Assembly: GCA_029256575.1 (NCBI GenBank)
Contig: JAQSXR010000003.1
Location: 248,001 to 312,000 of the forward strand
Direction: 5' to 3'
Source of the DNA: Clostridiales bacterium
GTDB lineage: Bacteria > Bacillota > Clostridia > Lachnospirales > JAQSXR01
Length of the DNA: 64,000 bases
The notes under the pieces were generated by a model. The model made no database searches. It was not told where the DNA came from and was given only the letters and a program-made list of their open reading frames with translations. Shown here in pieces: positions 3,373 through 44,646 of this stretch (its first letter is position 1; each line of letters starts with the position of its first letter). Both the position numbers and the translations under genes were made by a program.

Positions 3373-4653
3373 CTATTCAAAATACTCGAATTCTAGATAA
3401 TACATGCGGACAATGTCACCCTCTTGTATTCCTAATTCTTTTAGTTCGTCAATGATATTATTTTCTCTCAAGAATTTTTGGAAGAAATCAAAACCTTTTT
3501 CAGATTCAAGATTTGTGTAACCAAGCATTCTTTGTATTCTAGGTCCTTCAACAGCATAAACATTGTCTTCAACTTTTTCTACTGTATAAGGTTCGTTAGA
3601 CACAACAGATTTCTCGTCTTCAAAATATTCTCTTTCAAATATTATCGGTTCAATGTTAAGACTTTTTAATAGATCTTTTACATGAAATAATAATTCTCTT
3701 ACACCTTTGCCAGTTACAGCAGAAATAGGGTATACTTTGATACCTTTTGGTTCAAATTCATCCCTTAAAGCTTGGATATTATCACTGTAATCACCTAAGT
3801 CAATCTTATTCGCTGCTATTACTTGTGGTCTTGATGAAAGTTCGTTATTATAGACTTTTAATTCATTATTAATTATATTAATATCCTCAACTGGATCTCT
3901 ACCTTCTACTCCAGCCACATCTACGATGTGAATATTAACTCTTGTTCTTTCAATATGTCTTAGGAATTCATGTCCTAATCCAATACCTTCTGAAGCTCCT
4001 TCAATTAGTCCAGGAATATCAGCAATTACGAAGCCTTGTCCATCTTCCAAGTCAACTACACCAAGATTCGGATTTAACGTTGTAAAGTGATAATTCGCAA
4101 CTTTAGGTCTAGCATTAGTTACACTTGCTAAGAAAGTTGATTTACCAACATTAGGGAAACCAATTAGTCCTACATCGGCAATTGTCTTTAGTTCAAGTAA
4201 TAAATGAAAATCTCTTGAGTCTTGCCCTGGTTGAGCAAATTTTGGTATTTGCATAGTAGGGGTAGCGTAATGTTGATTTCCTTTTCCGCCTTTTCCACCT
4301 TTAACGATAACAAATCTCATATCAGGATCTGCCATATCAACTATAACTTTTCCAGTCGTTTCTTCTCTAATAACAGTACCTTGTGGTACTTCAATAATAA
4401 CATTTTCACCATCTGCTCCATGTTGACGTCTTCTACCGCCTACGCCACCATCTTCTGCAATGAATTTTCTATGATGTCTAAATTCGGATAAGGTATTCAA
4501 ACCTTTTGCTACAACGAAAACTACGTCGCCACCTTTACCGCCGTCGCCACCATCTGGTCCACCGTTTGCTACATACATTTCTCTTCGAAAACTTACATGT
4601 CCGTCTCCACCTTTACCTGAGCGAACATAAATCTTAGCTCTATCTGTAAACAT
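3373..4653 (-). CDS. obgE: GTPase Obg/CgtA
   Basis: Gly-rich OBG fold (GGDGGKGGDVVF), GFPNVGKST, DIPGLIEGAS, C-terminal OCT domain. Confidence 0.97.
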   Translation of the reverse strand: MFTDRAKIYVRSGKGGDGHVSFRREMYVANGGPDGGDGGKGGDVVFVVAKGLNTLSEFRHHRKFIAEDGGVGGRRRQHGADGENVIIEVPQGTVIREETTGKVIVDMADPDMRFVIVKGGKGGKGNQHYATPTMQIPKFAQPGQDSRDFHLLLELKTIADVGLIGFPNVGKSTFLASVTNARPKVANYHFTTLNPNLGVVDLEDGQGFVIADIPGLIEGASEGIGLGHEFLRHIERTRVNIHIVDVAGVEGRDPVEDINIINNELKVYNNELSSRPQVIAANKIDLGDYSDNIQALRDEFEPKGIKVYPISAVTGKGVRELLFHVKDLLKSLNIEPIIFEREYFEDEKSVVSNEPYTVEKVEDNVYAVEGPRIQRMLGYTNLESEKGFDFFQKFLRENNIIDELKELGIQEGDIVRMYYLEFEYFE

Positions 4654-4806
4654 TTTTACACCTACTTTACTGTAATTTGCATTTTACAATCAAAAATTAA
4701 TGACATCATAACCACAGATTGTATTCTACTATTATATTAACCATTTTTCATATTATAATATATCAAATATTAATTTAATATAGTATGTACTTATTTTGTC
4801 TAAAAA

Positions 4807-4845
4807 AAAAGTTTCAAATCACAAGACTTGAAACTTTTCGTTATT
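4807..4845 (-). terminator. Rho-independent terminator after rpmA
   Basis: AAAAGTTTCAAGTCTTGTGATTTGAAACTTTTTTTTT on minus strand. Confidence 0.8.
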
Positions 4846-5134
4846 ATTCGTTAACTACTATTGGATGTACAGAAGCTTGCTTTTTGTCTCTGCCTTTTCT
4901 TTCAAATCTAAGAACTCCATCAACCAATGCGAATAATGTATCGTCTCCACCACGGCCTACATTAATACCTGGATGAATCTTTGTTCCACGTTGTCTAAAA
5001 AGAATATTTCCAGCTTTTACAAATTGTCCGTCTGCTCTCTTCGCACCTAAGCGCTTAGATTGAGAATCTCTACCATTTTTAGTAGAACCAACGCCCTTTT
5101 TATGAGCGAATAACTGAAGGTTCATCTTTAACAT
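4844..5134 (-). CDS. rpmA: 50S ribosomal protein L27
   Basis: [35 protein letters not shown]-terminal extension typical of Firmicutes. Confidence 0.97.
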
Positions 5135-5137
5135 AAT

Positions 5138-5458
5138 TTACACCTCCTCAAATTTAAGGTTTATATATTTTTTTCCGTAAGTTTCTAAAATCCCTGTAAG
5201 CCCAATTAACATCGATTCCAATAATAATTGGGTCGCGCTATTTGGTTCATCTATAAGCTTACATTTCGCATATCCTTCATCAACTCTATACTCTATCTTA
5301 ACCTCTGTTAAATTCTCAAGAGAATTAATAGTTGTAATAAAAAGTACCGTTGTTGCTGAACATATAATATCTTTTCCGTTTTTTGCGTATCCGGCATGAC
5401 CGTTAGCTTCAAAACCGATTACCAAATCATTATGTTTAAAAATACTAATATTAATCAT
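5138..5458 (-). CDS. prp: Ribosomal-processing cysteine protease Prp (YsxB)
   Basis: Between rplU and rpmA; GHAGYAKNGKDIICSATTVL. Confidence 0.9.
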   Translation of the reverse strand: MINISIFKHNDLVIGFEANGHAGYAKNGKDIICSATTVLFITTINSLENLTEVKIEYRVDEGYAKCKLIDEPNSATQLLLESMLIGLTGILETYGKKYINLKFEEV

Positions 5459-5983: not shown

Positions 5984-7162
5984 TTATCTTACACTTTTAC
6001 CTAAATACTCCGCGATTGCTTCTACATCCTTATCTCCACGTCCAGATACAGTTACAATTATGATATCCTCTTTATCAAATTCTTTCGCACATTTAATTGC
6101 ATAAGCGAGTGCATGCGAACTTTCTATAGCAGGAATAATACCTTCCGTCTTAGATAAGGTTAATAGTGCATTAACAGCTTCATCATCTGTAATAGCTACA
6201 TATTCTGCTCTTCCTATTTCATTTAAATGTGCATGTTCTGGTCAAACACCTGGATAATCAAGTCCTGGTGAGATTGAATAAACCGGTGCAACCTCTTTGT
6301 TCTCATCCAATACACAAAGTGTTTTCATACCATGTATTACAGTTGTTTCACCAAGGGTTATAGTAGCTGCATGCATTTTGGTATCAAGTCCTTTTCCAGC
6401 TGCTTCTGCTCCGATTAATCGAACATCTTTATCATCTATATATTCTGCAAAAGAACCAATTGCATTACTTCCACCACCAACACAAGCTATTATTGCATTT
6501 GGAAGACGACCTTCTTTTTTCAGAATCTGTGCTTTTGATTCTTGACTAATAATTCTTTGGAACTCTTTTACGATCGTAGGGTATGGATGAGGGCCAACAG
6601 CAGAACCTAATACATAGAAAGTATCTTCTGCATGTTCAATCCAATAAACCAATGCCTCATCAACTGCTTCCTTAAGCGTTTGTGTTCCTGATAAAGCAGC
6701 CACTACCTTTGATCCTAGCATTTCCATTCGAAACACATTTAATGCTTGTCGATGCATATCTTCTTTTCCCATAAAAACAATGCATTCCATATTCAGAAGC
6801 GCTGCGATAGTAGCGGTTGCAACTCCGTGTTGGCCGGCTCCTGTTTCTGCTACTACTTTTTTCTTACCCATTCTCTTTGCTAAAAGCATTTGACCTAATA
6901 CGTTATTAAGCTTATGGGCACCTGTATGATTTAAATCTTCTCTTTTTAGATAAATCTTTGCTCCACCACAATATTCGGTAAAACGTTCAGCCAGATACAA
7001 CGGTGTTTCTCTTCCTGCATATTCCGTTAAATAATACATATACTCTTTTCTAAAATCTTCATCATCTTTGTACGTTACAAACGCATCTTCCAATTCCTTT
7101 AATACCAACGCCAAATTCTCTGGAACATAAGCTCCACCAAAACTACCAAATGTTTGTTTCAT
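5984..7162 (-). pseudogene. trpB: Tryptophan synthase beta chain interrupted by one in-frame TGA (6242-6244)
   Basis: ...[99 protein letters not shown] in the same frame. Confidence 0.88.
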
Positions 7163-7214
7163 GTTTCATTCCTCCTGATATTATTGTTTATATTCTGGCA
7201 TAAATGTGTTTGTA

Positions 7215-7470
7215 AGTATTAAGACAACAAAAAACGCCCATCCTTAGATATAATCTAAGGACAGGCGTATTATATACCTGCGGTACCACCTTAATTGTCG
7301 TAATGACCTCTCTCACAGAATGCCTACACATTCCTGCTCTATAACGTGAGCGTACGTTGCTAAATACTTGGGTTTCCCTGTTCATCAGCACCCTCAAAGG
7401 TCCATTTGTCCATTTCGTTTACTATTAGGTTCCCAGCAGCCCTAACTCTCTGTAAGTTCGTGAATGGTTT
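7215..7470 (-). promoter_or_regulatory. T-box leader, probably Trp-responsive
   Basis: Minus strand AATTAAGGTGGTACCGCAG T-box core followed by CGCCTGTCCTTAGATTATATCTAAGGATGGGCGTTTTTT terminator, upstream of trpB. Confidence 0.85.
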
Positions 7471-7641
7471 TATTTCCTTATCAATGGTTTACTTCTATAT
7501 CTTATTACGAATGGTTTGTATTTGTCAACACTTTTTATTCTTTTTACTCAAAAAAATATTACATCTCTTTTTATATTTAATATGACATGGTATACTAATC
7601 TCAAATATTGATTATTTACCTATGTAAATAATCAAATCAAA

Positions 7642-8187
7642 ATGGAGGATTATAGAATGGATTTCTTAGATTTAGCAAAGAAAAGATTTTCGGTCAGAAA
7701 GTTTATTGACAAACCCATTGAAGAGGATAAAATTCTTAAAATATTGGAAGCCGGAAGAATTGCTCCCACTGCTGTTAATTATCAACCACAACGGATTCTA
7801 GTAGTAAAGGATCCTAGAAATCTTGCAAAATTAGAAGAGGCAAGAAGAATATTTGGTGCAACTCTAGCTCTTGTTGTATGTGCAAATCACGATGAAAGTT
7901 GGAAACGTTCTTTTGACAATAAAGATTTTGCAGATGTAGATGCTTCAATCATTACCGATCATATGATGCTTCAAGCAACGGAACTTGGTTTAGGAAGTGT
8001 TTGGATTAGTTCTTTTGATCCAGCCTTATTAATTGATCTATTTAATATTCCAAATAATTTTGAAGCTATAAATATTCTTGCTATTGGGTATCCTGTAGAA
8101 AGCATACCACTTGCAGCTTCTTCACCAGATAGACATAACGTAGCAAGAAAACCATTATCCGAAACAGTATTTTATGAAACATTTTAA
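7642..8187 (+). CDS. Nitroreductase family protein (likely start MDFLDLAKKRFSVRKF)
   Basis: RFSVRKF..., APTAVNYQPQRILVV, ELGLGSVWI, GYP. Confidence 0.9.
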   Translation: MEDYRMDFLDLAKKRFSVRKFIDKPIEEDKILKILEAGRIAPTAVNYQPQRILVVKDPRNLAKLEEARRIFGATLALVVCANHDESWKRSFDNKDFADVDASIITDHMMLQATELGLGSVWISSFDPALLIDLFNIPNNFEAINILAIGYPVESIPLAASSPDRHNVARKPLSETVFYETF

Positions 8188-8235
8188 ACGATGATCATGC
8201 ATTGATAGATTGTTAAATATCTAATATCCACTTTC

Positions 8236-8290
8236 ACAAAGAGATTAATTAGTTAATTATTTCCTAATTAATCTCTATTATTTTTATTTT
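8236..8290 (+). terminator. Rho-independent terminator
   Basis: AGAGATTAATTAG...CTAATTAATCTCT followed by T-rich tract. Confidence 0.7.
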
Positions 8291-8410
8291 CTTATATATT
8301 TATTAATTTTATATTGATATTTTCTTTGTACACATTTACAATATATAACTAAGAGAATAAAAAGATTCTATTAACTAAGACTTATTACATAAAACACTTA
8401 GGAGGCCACA

Positions 8411-9080: not shown

Positions 9081-10154
9081 TATTTCTTTTTGCTTTGATA
9101 TTCTGCTAATAATAAATCTACCACTCGACCATAACTTCTGGTCCCATCTGTTTGTGCATTTGCTTTTAAATATGTATTATTTATAACTTCTGTCGCATCT
9201 GCCACTGGTCCTCGAAATTGTTTCCAGTATGTTATACTACTCGTCCAATCTCGAATAATTTGCTCCGGCAATGTATCATATAAAGCCCAATATTCTTCTT
9301 TTCCACCCGCATCGTACAACGCATTCATGCTATAAGTAATGGCAGATACGATTCCACTATATTGAAAAGCTGGACTATCTGATGCCATACAAGCAAGATA
9401 TGCTATAAAATTTGCTTCATCTTCTCTCATAAAACCTTTTAGATGAGATAATTCATGACAAACAGTTGATGGAATATCATAAGCTGGGACATCATTATCA
9501 TAGTTTGCCTCAACGGTAAACGGTGAATAAACACCAACTATTTGAGTATATGACATAAGCCTTGATGCAATAATTGGCTTAACATTTGGATAGTAGCCAG
9601 ATAGATCATTATATTCGGTGCCAATGTTTTTCATTGCTTTTCTTGCAGTACTAGAAATATCTACATCAATAACAGTTAATCCATTTTTATCTACTTTTAC
9701 TTCTTCACTAATTGAAGTTGCGCGTCTAATTAAGTCTTCACATAGCTCATACAGCAAATGTATAGCGGTGATAATTTATGCCTGTTGTAAGGGTAAATGT
9801 TAAAGCAATCGAGCAAATGATACATATTACTTTTAGAATTCTTTTCTTGATATTTTTTGTATCTTTATGCCTCTTAGTAAATAAGTTCTTAATAAAAATA
9901 ATAATCTTATAAATAACACCAATTATTATCAAATATATTAATATCTCAACAACAGAGAACGGAAATATTGATGTAATCCTGCTCATAATATTAACTATAA
10001 TTGGATAAATGGTAGTTGCATACCACTCAGCAAACGGAGAATATAAGCGCGCAGTGACATTAAGAACTACTAATAATAAAAAGCTAACTGCAATAAAAAC
10101 AATATATTTTTTATAACTTTCCTTCGTATGTAAATATCCAAGTCTACTGTTCAT
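9080..10154 (-). pseudogene. DUF3810 membrane metallopeptidase-like gene, split into two overlapping ORFs (9747-10154 and 9080-9757)
   Basis: Upstream ORF has TM segments and ends TTGINYHRYTFAV*; downstream ORF begins in another frame with LYELCEDLI and carries STVCHELSHLKGF. Confidence 0.6.
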
Positions 10155-39302: not shown

Positions 39303-40619
39303 TTATTTTATGAATTGGATTATGTTTGATTGTTTTGTGTATATGTTTTTCTTAAACTTCTCAGTATTTATTGAACCAATTGAGCCACCGTCCATCATAA
39401 CAGCATTAACTAAACCTAATGATTTACATAGTTTATTTACTTCTGAAGCAGATTTATTATCAACATAGATTCCATGCACTAATCCATCTTTATCAACTCC
39501 AATTACAGCGTGAGATGTTTTTCTCAATACATCTGAAAAATCATATGGCTTGCCTTGAAACACGATGCCACTCTTAAATCCTTCAGCACTTGGATTGTAT
39601 TTATCAAGCAAGCTTACTCCACCAATTGCAAATATGTAAGGTTTTTTAATCTCATTTAAACCTTTAATTCTAAGAGTATCAAAAGTTCCATCTTTGTAAG
39701 CAACTAATACACCCTCTGGAAAACCGCACCATTGATGGCAAGCCCATTCATTTATCTTTCTTAACTTACCATAACTCTCAATTGCCATTATACTTGCAAC
39801 TTTACCTGTAGCACGATTAAAAAATGTACCATTGAGACAATTAATAAACCATCCTGTAGATTTTTCACATTTCAAATCAGCCATAACTATATGCTCACTA
39901 ATCATTACACAATCACCATTGCCTAACTCTTTTATGATTGGATATTCAACTACCGTTTCAACAGGCTTAACAGGTTTAGGATTTGGAACAGTAGGAGCAA
40001 TAGCAGAAGCAATATTAGGTATCTTTATTTTCTGTCCTACGCTAATTGAGGAAGGTGATTTGATATTATTATATTGTGCTAATTTTATGTATGTAGTTTT
40101 ATATTTTGCAGCTATTTTAGAAAGTGTATCACCTCTAACAACTGTATAAGTTATTTCTGCCATATTTGTTTCCTCCGATTTTTCTTCGCTTATTACATAA
40201 TCATATATTCCACGTAAATTTGGGATTTGTTTTAAAATATTAGTAGGATCTAAACTTGTACCTTTTGTGTTACGAATTTCAAAATGAGTATGTTTTCCTG
40301 TGCTTAATCCAGTTGAGCCAGAAATTCCGAGTATATCACCAGTTTTTATTTTTTGTCCTACTTGTACTTTTCTGCTTGCCATGTGACAATAGTAATATTT
40401 CAATCCATCAGAACCGTCGACTCTAACATAATTTCCCCATTGCCAAGTGTTATTCCCTGAAGATTTTGGAATGATAGTAGAAACACCAACCGTTCCATCC
40501 GTAAAACTAATTACATTGTCATTATCTTGATAGACTATATCTATTCCTTTATGAAATTGATTTTCTCCAAAGATAAATCTATTCCCATATGGAGAAGATA
40601 TTTTATATTTAAAAGTCAT
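39303..40619 (-). CDS. Endolysin: M23 peptidase + LysM + phosphodiester glycosidase (NAGPA)-like domain
   Basis: FHKGIDI...YYYCHMASRKVQVGQKIKTGDILGISGSTGLSTGKHTHFEI; YTVVRGDTLSKIAAKYKTTY; LNGTFFNRATG...HAVIGVDKDG...VNAVMMDGGSIGSI. Confidence 0.85.
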   Translation of the reverse strand: MTFKYKISSPYGNRFIFGENQFHKGIDIVYQDNDNVISFTDGTVGVSTIIPKSSGNNTWQWGNYVRVDGSDGLKYYYCHMASRKVQVGQKIKTGDILGISGSTGLSTGKHTHFEIRNTKGTSLDPTNILKQIPNLRGIYDYVISEEKSEETNMAEITYTVVRGDTLSKIAAKYKTTYIKLAQYNNIKSPSSISVGQKIKIPNIASAIAPTVPNPKPVKPVETVVEYPIIKELGNGDCVMISEHIVMADLKCEKSTGWFINCLNGTFFNRATGKVASIMAIESYGKLRKINEWACHQWCGFPEGVLVAYKDGTFDTLRIKGLNEIKKPYIFAIGGVSLLDKYNPSAEGFKSGIVFQGKPYDFSDVLRKTSHAVIGVDKDGLVHGIYVDNKSASEVNKLCKSLGLVNAVMMDGGSIGSINTEKFKKNIYTKQSNIIQFIK

Positions 40620-41340: not shown

Positions 41341-41393
41341 TGTTGTTTTATATTGAGTTGTTAGTATTAAAAAAGTATTTGAATATAGAACAA

Positions 41394-41475
41394 TAGCACC
41401 CCCTATTACTAGGAATGCTACGTTCTCCGTATGGCACAACACAAACCTTAACGTGCTAGTTTGTGAGACCAAGAT
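41394..41475 (-). ncRNA. Candidate structured RNA C downstream of DUF3800
   Basis: CACAAAC/GTTTGTG stem; loop ACGTT pairs with downstream AACGT; then 11-bp hairpin TAGCATTCCTA-GTAA-TAGGGGGTGCTA with GNRA loop. Confidence 0.6.
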
Positions 41476-41579
41476 AAATATAATGAGTCTTTTTTTGAAA
41501 CATATTGTTTCGTTAGATACACTATATCATAATGAGGGGTTATTATAGTAAGTGCTATAAAGATATGTATATTTACATA

Positions 41580-41612
41580 ACAAAAGCCCACATATTAAGT
41601 GAGCTAATTTTT
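41580..41612 (-). terminator. Rho-independent terminator after candidate RNA A
   Basis: Minus strand AGCTCAC-TTAATAT-GTGGGCTTTTGTT. Confidence 0.75.
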
Positions 41613-41652
41613 GTATAGTTTTAATATAATTCAAAAATTAATATAATTAATT

Positions 41653-41722
41653 GCCCAAGCACGATGACAATACATGTCACTTACCTAGATAATGGCGTGT
41701 AATCAGGACTTACTGTTAACTT
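41653..41722 (-). ncRNA. Candidate structured RNA A
   Basis: Sequence-related to B (TCCTgATtA...ATTaTCTaGGTAAG...ATGT.TT..GTCATcGT); CACG loop / CGTG pseudoknot; TGACA/TGTCA hairpin. Confidence 0.6.
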
Positions 41723-41728
41723 AAATTA

Positions 41729-41757
41729 AGTATACAACTGTTTTGTAGCATTGTCAA
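41729..41757 (-). promoter_or_regulatory. Sigma70-type promoter for candidate RNA A
   Basis: TTGACA-N17-TATACT on minus strand. Confidence 0.75.
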
Positions 41758-41789
41758 CTTTTTTATTTGTAAAAATTATATTTATATAA

Positions 41790-41866
41790 CACCGATTACC
41801 TTAACTATGACACTAACACATAGTGCTTACCAAGACAATAGCATACATAAGGATTTATTGTCGGTG
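41790..41866 (-). ncRNA. Candidate structured RNA B
   Basis: Outer CACCGA/TCGGTG; GACAATA/TATTGTC stem; loop CCTTA pairs with downstream TAAGG. Confidence 0.6.
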
Positions 41867-41897
41867 CTATAATATAATATACGAAATTATAAATATT

Positions 41898-42605
41898 CTA
41901 TGCATATATTGGAGGATATTTAAACACCTTTATTAAATATCCATTATCTATCATATACTGAATTTCAGATTCATATACCCCATCTGTCATAATATTAGAA
42001 TAAAATAGATTTGAAAATACATCGGATAACTGAATAATTTTATTATTACTCGAATCAAAATATTGTATTTGGATATTATCTGCAATATTTCTCCCTGTAA
42101 TAAATTCAGTCATAAAAAGTTCCTCAAGGTTATATCTTGCATCTGTTTTAACATTTCGTTCATCGACTTGAATATACCATACTCTATCGGTTAATACAGA
42201 AATATTATTTAAATGTTCAAAAGCTAATTTTAAAACATAATTAAATGCCCTTGCTTTATTTTTATAAAAATTATTTTCTGCTTTTTCATTATCAATATTT
42301 ATATAAAGTAACTTAAACCAATCATTTTTGCAAAAATAATCAACAAATTTACGTTTCATTTCTGATGTAAAACAACATCCCTTTAATTCTACGAAATCAT
42401 TATCTTTAAACATTTTAGAATCTATATCAATAGATTTTAATTCGATTAAATATTTAGCAACAAACCTCTTATAAATCTTTTTTAATTTATCAGGATTATC
42501 TGTTAGCAATAAGCAAATAATGAATGACTTATTTCTTTTTAATGTTGTCTCATGTGTCATACTCCCTGATTCATCTATATAAATATACATGCTATCCCTC
42601 CCCAT
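41898..42605 (-). CDS. DUF3800 domain protein
   Basis: MYIYIDESGSMT...KSFIICLLL; C-terminal IQIQYFDSSNNKIIQLSDVFSNLFYS. Confidence 0.88.
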   Translation of the reverse strand: MGRDSMYIYIDESGSMTHETTLKRNKSFIICLLLTDNPDKLKKIYKRFVAKYLIELKSIDIDSKMFKDNDFVELKGCCFTSEMKRKFVDYFCKNDWFKLLYINIDNEKAENNFYKNKARAFNYVLKLAFEHLNNISVLTDRVWYIQVDERNVKTDARYNLEELFMTEFITGRNIADNIQIQYFDSSNNKIIQLSDVFSNLFYSNIMTDGVYESEIQYMIDNGYLIKVFKYPPIYA

Positions 42606-42623
42606 TATTAATACTCTTGTAGT

Positions 42624-42634
42624 ATTATACCATA
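42624..42634 (-). promoter_or_regulatory. Extended -10 promoter element for DUF3800
   Basis: TATGGTATAAT on minus strand just upstream of the start. Confidence 0.6.
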
Positions 42635-42716
42635 TAATGGAATATTAGGAAGAAATAAATCATATAAAGTTTAAGGCAAAGTACAACATTAAACAAGAGG
42701 AGAGGATTATGTTATG

Positions 42717-42950
42717 TTAATAATAAATCTGTATGTAACCATCGTTGAAACTTATTGTTATTAGATCTTCACTATCTTGAAATCCTACATATATTACACT
42801 ATCTACAAGGAAAGCATTGAGGACTAGGCTAGTATCTTCTAATAATTCTTCTTCTGGTAATTCATCGTCTGAATGGTAGCTAGAGAAAACCATTCCATCT
42901 TCACATTCCATTGTTAGGTTGGTAAGCTTGTATTTATCCAAATACTGCAA
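42717..42950 (-). CDS. Phage hypothetical protein
   Basis: 77 aa ORF overlapping the 3-prime end of the tail-tip gene. Confidence 0.5.
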   Translation of the reverse strand: MQYLDKYKLTNLTMECEDGMVFSSYHSDDELPEEELLEDTSLVLNAFLVDSVIYVGFQDSEDLITISFNDGYIQIYY

Positions 42951-44646
42951 CCGGTTTATTGTTACCCCATTCTATATTCTGTGCATCCGATAAATCAACA
43001 TAACCATAAAGAGACGTGGTACCATTTGTTATCCCTAAATTAACGTGGTTGCAATTTAGATCAGCCCTAAGTGCTGACATATAAATCGAATCGTATATAC
43101 TATATATGCTCGCTGTATCTGAAAAGGATATCACTTTTCTATCTGTGTCATTTAAAGCTCCTAATCTTAACTCTTTTGCAACTTGCGCTATATTTGTACT
43201 AATACGTTCAGCATCTATCGTCCCAGTTTTGATGCAATCACCATTAATAAGAGTCGTCCCCCCTGATAGACCAACTAGTGTCACAAGTCCATCTAATACT
43301 AACCTACTAGCAGCTATTCTTATTTCTTCTGCTGATTGATTTATACTTGAAATTACTCCATCTTTGGAAACTTTCAAAGCAATCTCTTCTGCTGTTTGTG
43401 TTATACTTGAACTTAATTGATTTTCTTTTGCTGTTGCTCTTGAAACTTCAGTTAATATTTGTTCAGCTGTTTGCGTTATATTGGACTTATTAGTTTGAAT
43501 TAACTCATTCAGACCACCATTACCATCTATACCGTATAAATCCTTTGTAAACGTACTTCTTAATTCTAATAAATCTTGAGTAAATTCCGATGTGTATAAA
43601 GCAATCGTGTTTAGGGTTTCTTGCGCAGTTCCTTGTAAGTCATTTATTTGTTTCGTAAAATTTTGAACCAACTTTTTAAGTGTCTTTCTAAAATTTCCAA
43701 ATTGAATAAATCCAAACTTTTTGGCTAGGCAATCATATTTTACTGAAATGACTTCTGTATATAGGTCTATTCCCATTTGCGGATAATTAACTTTTATCGT
43801 ATCACCAATATCAACTATGCCATTGAGATGTGCTTTTAACTCATAGTTTACTCTTGGATATTTATTAACTTCTAGGTATTCTTGTGCTTGAACTCGCAAA
43901 TCATAAAGAACCTCATTAGTATCTTCTATATCTATATTTTCGCTAGGATTGAATTGAATTGATTTCACATATGGGATGTTATATTGAACATCTGATATTA
44001 AAAATTGTTCAGGTAATGTTACTCCGTTATAACCAACTGGTAAAATTTTAGTAACAACATCATCCCAGTTCTCAAACGCCTTTAATCCTTCAATATTTTT
44101 TCCATACATTAAAGTAACTCCTCTATCAACTCCTATTTGATTATTTATTCCAAATTCAAAGTTATTTCGATATAAATGTCCACCATATAAATTCAAATGG
44201 CTTAAAATTGTTTCTAAGAGTGACTTCCTAATATACCTTGAAGATTTTTGTTCAATAATATCTGAAGTGGTTGTAAAATTATTCCCTGGTACTGTTCTTT
44301 GTAATATCCAGTTTAGACTGTCATTGCAATTTAAATCTTGTGGATAAACATCTATAAGAAGATAACGTTCGCTATCATAGAACAAATGTTTTGCTTTAAA
44401 GGTTAGTAAATCTCTAGTAATTTCAGGATTATTAAGTCTAAAACCTTGTTCGCCCCATGGCGTATTTACTCTCACTATATTGTTTTGTTGTAGCCATTCG
44501 ATATATTTTGTACTAGCTTCCAATTCTAAATAATATTCACCATTATCTTCCTTGAAAACTTGTGCTCGTTCTGGTTTAATTATCTTAATTCCATTGTTTA
44601 AAAATTGTGTTTCCGTAGCTTCATATACTTTTATCATTATATCCAC
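42934..44646 (-). CDS. Phage tail-tip / prophage endopeptidase tail (Tal-like) protein
   Basis: IIKPERAQVFKEDNGEYYLELE..., GDTIKVNYPQMGIDLYTEVISVKYDCLAKKFGFIQFGNFRKTL. Confidence 0.8.
   Translation of the reverse strand: MDIMIKVYEATETQFLNNGIKIIKPERAQVFKEDNGEYYLELEASTKYIEWLQQNNIVRVNTPWGEQGFRLNNPEITRDLLTFKAKHLFYDSERYLLIDVYPQDLNCNDSLNWILQRTVPGNNFTTTSDIIEQKSSRYIRKSLLETILSHLNLYGGHLYRNNFEFGINNQIGVDRGVTLMYGKNIEGLKAFENWDDVVTKILPVGYNGVTLPEQFLISDVQYNIPYVKSIQFNPSENIDIEDTNEVLYDLRVQAQEYLEVNKYPRVNYELKAHLNGIVDIGDTIKVNYPQMGIDLYTEVISVKYDCLAKKFGFIQFGNFRKTLKKLVQNFTKQINDLQGTAQETLNTIALYTSEFTQDLLELRSTFTKDLYGIDGNGGLNELIQTNKSNITQTAEQILTEVSRATAKENQLSSSITQTAEEIALKVSKDGVISSINQSAEEIRIAASRLVLDGLVTLVGLSGGTTLINGDCIKTGTIDAERISTNIAQVAKELRLGALNDTDRKVISFSDTASIYSIYDSIYMSALRADLNCNHVNLGITNGTTSLYGYVDLSDAQNIEWGNNKPVAVFG

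Follow-up and report, generated by a model that had tools for sequence, protein, structure and literature searches.

Why should a prophage carry, among its tail and lysis genes, a DUF3800 gene followed by structured RNAs, and what do these RNAs do for the protein beside them? RNAs next to DUF3800 genes have been catalogued for years with no function attached, and Weinberg and colleagues reportedly described the Rfam motifs DUF3800-II to -XI as structured RNAs beside DUF3800 genes, function unknown. The locus considered here lies in a window of 64,000 nucleotides, the whole stretch of Clostridiales DNA that was analysed, for which an earlier note had proposed a protein-RNA module carried as phage cargo. 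The case adds more than 100 RNA copies, a structure backed by covariation, a core in common with a family already in Rfam, predicted promoters and terminators, a high-confidence protein model and natural examples where a broken or lost protein has left its RNA behind. This material reduces "function unknown" to a simple question, namely whether the RNA inhibits or activates a nuclease.

The DUF3800 gene of the window (41898..42605, minus strand) is a 235-aa open reading frame for a nuclease-like protein that matches Pfam PF12686 with an E-value of 9.4e-10, its 39.8 bits standing above the Pfam gathering cut-off of 21. Translation more probably starts at the second ATG (42590, downstream of GGGGAGGG), as the 230-aa product would then begin MYIYIDESG, in agreement with the MNIYIDESG start of homologs. 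An extended -10 element, TATGGTATAAT (42634-42624, minus strand), is read in the sequence ahead of the gene and is its putative promoter. The cassette lies on the minus strand of the prophage tail/lysis region, with a Prophage_tail protein (42934-44646) on one side and an M23/LysM/NAGPA protein (39303-40619, minus strand) on the other. The latter combines Peptidase_M23, LysM and NAGPA phosphodiester glycosidase in one prophage protein, an unusual set, and elsewhere in the window there is a T-box leader RNA (RF00230, 102.8 bits; 7254-7493, minus strand). Beyond the 3' end of the DUF3800 gene about 600 nt hold no credible gene and contain three terminator-like hairpins, against 0.3 expected. The hairpin scan placed these, all on the minus strand, at 41605-41585, a candidate intrinsic terminator of the second RNA described below with a weak T tract, at 41421-41393, and at 41337-41312, intrinsic terminator-like and ahead of the next tail-region gene. 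The earlier note's description of a gene with its own extended -10 element that interrupts the tail region and is followed by non-coding DNA with terminators thus holds. A public viral contig (L001) carries the identical stretch, and a whole-region nucleotide search of phage records gave no match.

Two RNAs of 81 nt with a three-way junction follow the gene, alpha at 41868-41788 and beta at 41723-41643, both on the minus strand. The covariance model R1, whose training set includes both copies, scores them at 82.3 bits (E 1.5e-20) and 90.7 bits (E 5.4e-23), respectively. Alpha starts 29 nt past the DUF3800 stop codon; no promoter stands at the usual distance ahead of it, the best score being only 8/12 and 26 nt off, and it is probably part of the 3' UTR of the DUF3800 mRNA. 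Beta is preceded by a predicted sigma-70 promoter, TTGACA-17-TATACT (41757-41729, minus strand), where the -10 box ends 5 nt ahead of the closing helix P1, and both the position and the 17-nt spacing of this promoter recur across homologs. Folding of the single sequences gives z-scores of -1.9 for alpha and -0.4 for beta, which are not convincing alone, the evidence being comparative; the minimum free energy fold of alpha equals the fold supported by covariation except for the short helix P3.

Three RNA elements, each with a pseudoknot, had been proposed in the earlier note, and only part of this picture survives. Alpha and beta are two of the three; the third, element C (~41560-41390, minus strand, enclosing the hairpin at 41421-41393), is unsupported as a member of their family. 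The R1 model has no match in it, no homolog was found and two of its stretches fold at z -1.7 and -0.6, which is chance level or marginal; on the absent match and the weak folding it was rejected as a third copy. The helix proposed between a loop (TCCTTA) and a downstream strand (TAAGG) persists as the covarying helix P2, and the pseudoknot stem GACAATA/TATTGTC falls away, with 56% of cells paired and zero compensatory change across 16 distinct copies, where the nested structure on the same alignment has 98.6% of cells paired and 21 of 26 pairs compensated. As for the Rfam DUF3800 motifs against which the earlier note had proposed a check, none is found at threshold in the window; the Rfam scan gave no family in the region at gathering and, at E<=10, only chance-level unrelated matches.

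The structure rests on comparison across genomes. Relatives of the protein that are 42-65% identical to it, in other genomes of the class, have conserved sequence immediately 3' of the gene, including the strand AACAGTAAGTC...GCC.TT.TC..GGTAAG. A first alignment of eight copies over 82 columns was made with MAFFT without any structure model, and on it a hand-written nested structure has 98.1% of cells paired and compensatory changes in 17 of 26 pairs. All five measures but the number of pair types beat every one of 500 shuffles, and shifting the partner by 1-3 columns lowers pairing to 47% or less. RNAalifold independently gave the same helices minus one pair, and the P3 pairs that it added were adopted in the model. 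The fold is closed by P1 (8 bp) and continues with P2, of 5 bp and one G-C pair across a bulge, and P2b (4 bp), with a three-way junction that has a short P3, an unpaired UAA and a hairpin P4 whose 5-nt loop is often UGUGU. In a larger set of 89 distinct copies 95.6% of cells are paired and 23 of 26 pairs are compensated, 629 cells having changed on both sides against 182 +/- 19 in shuffles (0/500), with 72 further pair types against 62.6 +/- 2.3, although this alignment was fitted to the covariance model and so favours the structure. The earlier note had made its proposal depend on covariation in homologous loci, and covariation is strong. G-U is the commonest pair at one position of P4 (69/89) and is frequent at others. 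Alpha and beta are shown by these comparisons to be homologs, with a conserved three-way junction and a tie to DUF3800 genes. The two types stand side by side in six loci, with identities of about 70-92% within a type and about 55-67% between types, and look like old paralogs kept together.

How close is the tie between RNA and gene? A protein-alignment scan of 85,462 species genomes yielded 80 DUF3800 loci, in which a second covariance model, R2, trained on 17 copies from 11 loci, gave 97 matches at E<=1 in 862 kb, every one adjoining DUF3800; some of the 80 loci are training genomes, such that most but not all of these hits are independent. Ninety copies lie downstream and six upstream on the strand of the gene, and one lies downstream on the opposite strand; those on the same strand are mostly 20-100 nt past the stop codon. 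The gap is about 1.1 kb in L109 (6723-7863) and about 0.5 kb in L116 (6723-7226), possibly through later insertions. At least one RNA copy is present in 77 of the 80 loci, and no locus has more than two, which are diverged. Among the three loci scored negative, the sequence ends within the gene in L073, and L112 and L119 have an intact DUF3800 gene with no detectable RNA. The earlier note had held that homologs lacking any associated RNA would tell against its proposal; association is instead the rule. A scan of 40 whole genomes gave 46 matches, all at DUF3800 loci. When R2 was run with filters off on seven distant loci on which it had not been trained (Listeria phage PSA, Javan304, Javan529, Javan555, a Fusobacterium record, L010 and L049), the best match adjoined DUF3800 in all seven, with scores from 41.8 down to 19.9 bits, the weakest of which rest partly on position. 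The DUF3800 protein of the phage and Fusobacterium records shows only ~25-31% identity. Javan304, Javan529 and Javan555 (L035, L036 and L037) are streptococcal satellite phages that carry DUF3800 and the RNA, and an integrase adjoins in L035 and L037. Two RNAs, L010:2275-2192 (minus) and L121:6868-6788 (minus), are opposite in strand to the DUF3800 gene and convergent with it, which excludes a pure 3'-UTR role at both. Many bacteria from the gut and the environment carry the cassette, as do their phages. Given the adjacent RNA in 77 of 80 loci and the covariation, a protein-RNA module of the DUF3800 kind is strongly supported, and at the window locus it is carried as prophage cargo, as had been proposed.

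Signals for transcription are distributed unevenly over the copies. For 63% of the 105 distinct upstream regions the top-scoring sigma-70 match is at least 10/12, against 3.4% in shuffles. In 69 of the 88 regions scoring at least 9, the distance from the end of the -10 box to P1 is 3 nt (48 cases) or 5 nt (21 cases), and in 76 the promoter spacing is 17 nt. A terminator follows the RNA within 110 nt in 61 of 93 copies, the rate in shuffles being 2.2%. The first copies of two-copy loci mostly have neither promoter nor terminator signals. With the signals so distributed, a beta or single copy has the look of an sRNA gene whose start is P1, and alpha is probably carried on the DUF3800 mRNA.

For the protein itself, a high-confidence model points to an RNase H/RNase HII-like fold. 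The AlphaFold model, built from 56 sequences, has a pLDDT of 93.1 and a pTM of 0.91, and its best match among solved structures in Foldseek is RNase HII (1eke, E 3.5e-5), a remote one with a TM-score of ~0.48, followed by RNase H3 (4py5, E 2.9e-3). The acidic residues D6, E7, E68, D143 and D190, numbered from the 42590 start, are invariant in the 56 proteins, and the N-terminal YIDESG is taken to resemble the GIDEAGRG motif of RNase HII. A sequence search of the PDB with the protein gave only chance-level matches (Cullin-2, STING) and no related solved structure, and neither the PADLOC defence families nor NCBIfam returned any family for it.

The cassette has recognisable limits. Where related cassettes lie in unrelated surroundings, the sequence that they have in common starts ~35-90 nt ahead of the gene and ends with the terminator's T-run, which in the best-defined groups is 30-40 nt past the last RNA; they are alike from promoter to terminator, with flanks that are unlike. 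Phage portal and Clp protease genes are among the neighbours, as are UvrC, FTHFS, FeoB, P-type ATPase and peptidase genes, and since some of these are non-phage housekeeping genes the cassette is not solely a phage gene. The description as phage cargo consequently applies to this prophage, to Listeria phages and to satellites and does not extend to the many copies between housekeeping genes (FeoB, UvrC, FTHFS). In L028, the relative closest to the window protein, a gene for a Card1-like CARF endonuclease (7205-8362, minus strand; PF09002, PF23400) stands directly downstream of the cassette, Card1 belonging to CRISPR type III signalling. In L096 a SocA/Panacea antitoxin-domain gene (4179-5213, minus strand) lies near the cassette.

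The RNA is also found without the protein. A search that started from the RNA, in two families and 14 genomes, found eight with an intact DUF3800 gene, three with a broken or truncated one that keep a full-length RNA beside it, and three with none nearby; starting from the protein, the RNA is missing in only two loci with usable flank, L112 and L119. That the RNA persists without the protein more than the protein without the RNA is only suggestive, because the RNA-first and protein-first surveys were sampled differently, and ordinary decay can also remove a protein gene and leave a short RNA. The orphans in L027 and L174 retain promoter, beta and terminator downstream of FeoB, which is the site of full cassettes in L082-L084 and L090, and their RNA is 90-98% identical to beta. 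In L027 an open reading frame (3587-4165, minus strand) that overlaps the orphan RNA is similar, by eye only, to the SocA/Panacea gene of L096. L174 has two orphan beta RNAs 3 kb apart (6700-7060 and 9650-10020) that share ~420 nt at 91% identity, and ahead of the first lies an 83-aa hydrophobic open reading frame (6481-6732) that by eye is like a small membrane toxin and has no Pfam match.

What arrangement would account for all of this? The best explanation, to which a probability of about 0.45 is given, is a self-contained mobile cassette, made up of promoter, DUF3800 gene, alpha, a separate promoter, beta and terminator, which would encode an RNA-restrained nuclease and serve as an addiction or abortive-defence device. 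DUF3800 would be a nuclease that binds the alpha and beta RNAs, and strongly transcribed beta would bind it up in a complex that is inactive or limited in specificity, as type III RNA antitoxins do. Alpha, being on the mRNA, may allow the protein to sense or limit its own message. Were the RNA supply disturbed, for instance when a phage takes over or the cassette is lost, the nuclease would be freed to cut nucleic acid, and in the prophage tail/lysis region the cassette would be a moron of this kind. That the RNA restrains its DUF3800 nuclease in an antitoxin-like manner is favoured because it fits the almost constant pairing, the strong promoter that beta has to itself, the predicted nuclease fold and the RNA outliving the protein, with the step from association to inhibition one that we infer. 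A defence, exclusion or toxin-antitoxin-like role, which the earlier note had suggested, is a fair guess with only indirect support, from the predicted RNase HII-like fold and the RNA kept after loss of the protein. Overall, what that note observed is partly confirmed and what it made of it partly supported.

The main rival to RNA restraint, though an unlikely one, is that the DUF3800 nuclease is RNA-directed and cuts foreign nucleic acid, with the RNA as a cofactor or guide that it cannot do without and not as an inhibitor. The RNase H-like fold, the position of the RNA beside the nuclease gene near the right end of the cassette and the near-universal co-occurrence would suit such an effector. 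A CRISPR survey found DUF3800 alongside Cas12a2, and in the published AlphaFold analysis DUF3800 is an RNase H fold that shows a catalytic rearrangement (PMC10910872); the occurrence of DUF3800 proteins as CRISPR accessories at Cas12a2 and VI-F loci (PMC10910872, PMC12669027) hints at an effector role instead of a restrained toxin. Against this, no variable guide segment was seen in the RNAs, those of L085, L091, L092, L093 and L095 all scoring 97.8 bits, the homologous block stops at the terminator T-run, and orphan RNAs are kept without the protein.

Considerably less probable again is that the elements act as folded single-stranded DNA, as end-recognition sites of a transposable element with DUF3800 as its transposase. 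Cassettes with unrelated flanks do have defined common edges, the right edges recurring at GGCTTTTTT or GTATTTTTT, and there are solitary insertions among housekeeping genes. However, promoters that match the consensus at a constant distance, together with terminators, speak of transcription, the frequent G-U pairs (69/89 at the P4 position above) favour RNA, and the copies at the FeoB site are common to several species, i.e. vertically inherited. Neither a second end structure nor a target-site duplication was seen at the cassette edges read, and the left-edge motif AATGTTT, considered as a transposon end, is upstream in 19 of 80 loci, which is above background and not general. That the RNAs only regulate the DUF3800 mRNA in cis or stabilise it, as 3'-UTR autoregulation, is a reading that draws on the 96 of 97 copies that are on the same strand, mostly 20-100 nt past the stop, and on the alpha copies without a fixed promoter, but is improbable in the face of beta and single copies with their own promoters and often terminators, opposite-strand copies (L010, L121), copies upstream of the gene and orphan beta RNAs.

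The restrained-nuclease cassette can finally be set beside known systems, the nearest of which is DUF3800-I (RF02969). R1 and R2, built without any DUF3800-I sequence, match four DUF3800-I RNAs (L047, L048, L178 and L179) at their exact positions; two of the four come from weak R1 matches, in G215 and G519, that are not chance, as they were shown to be DUF3800-I RNAs, and R2 matched those of two further genomes. Both families adjoin a DUF3800 open reading frame (for DUF3800-I in the one locus checked, L179) and have the same order of core elements, a long stem, a second stem, P3, an unpaired UAAG and P4 with a 5-nt loop, corresponding to P2, P2b, P3, UAAG and P4. They differ in that the DUF3800-I model carries a hairpin at the 5' end and a terminator hairpin at the 3' end, whereas the window RNAs have the covarying 8-bp closing P1 and the 5'-side strand ACAGUAAGUC, and in that the RNA precedes the gene in L179 and follows it in the window. 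Because the blind weak matches were DUF3800-I RNAs and the core is the same, the window RNA family is, as judged from the sequences, a sister of DUF3800-I in one superfamily, below Rfam detection: the Rfam DUF3800-I model has no match in the window even at E<=10 and none in the homologous loci scanned, and DUF3800-II to -XI matched in no scanned locus of the family.

TnpB and IscB are RNase H-fold nucleases with an adjacent omega-RNA, and the cassette resembles them in the predicted fold of its protein and in the structured RNA adjoining at its right end, but no guide segment was seen in its RNA and there is no detectable sequence relation. The accessory proteins of Cas12a2 and VI-F loci share the DUF3800 domain with its RNase H fold (PMC10910872, PMC12669027), though those linked to Cas12a2 are TPR fusions beside Cas effectors. 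With the type III toxin-antitoxin systems ToxIN, CptIN and TenpIN (PMC5086642) the cassette has in common a nuclease, here a predicted one, a structured small RNA, carriage on mobile elements and an RNA that can outlast the protein. The type III antitoxin RNA, however, lies upstream as tandem repeats co-transcribed with the toxin through a terminator (PMC5086642) and forms a pseudoknot, whereas the cassette RNAs are mostly downstream (91/97), number at most two diverged copies, have a promoter of their own and adopt a nested fold, and the cassette protein is RNase HII-like and not ToxN-like. An RNase HII-like nuclease checked by a promoter-driven three-way-junction RNA, with a second paralog on the nuclease mRNA, might form an unrecognised class of RNA antitoxin, and the core shared with DUF3800-I would make it part of a DUF3800 ribonucleoprotein superfamily that spans Firmicutes, Fusobacterium, phages and phage satellites, a wider proposal held slightly more tentatively than the cassette model itself. 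If the RNA does inhibit the nuclease, phages and their satellites bear a new type of RNA antitoxin.
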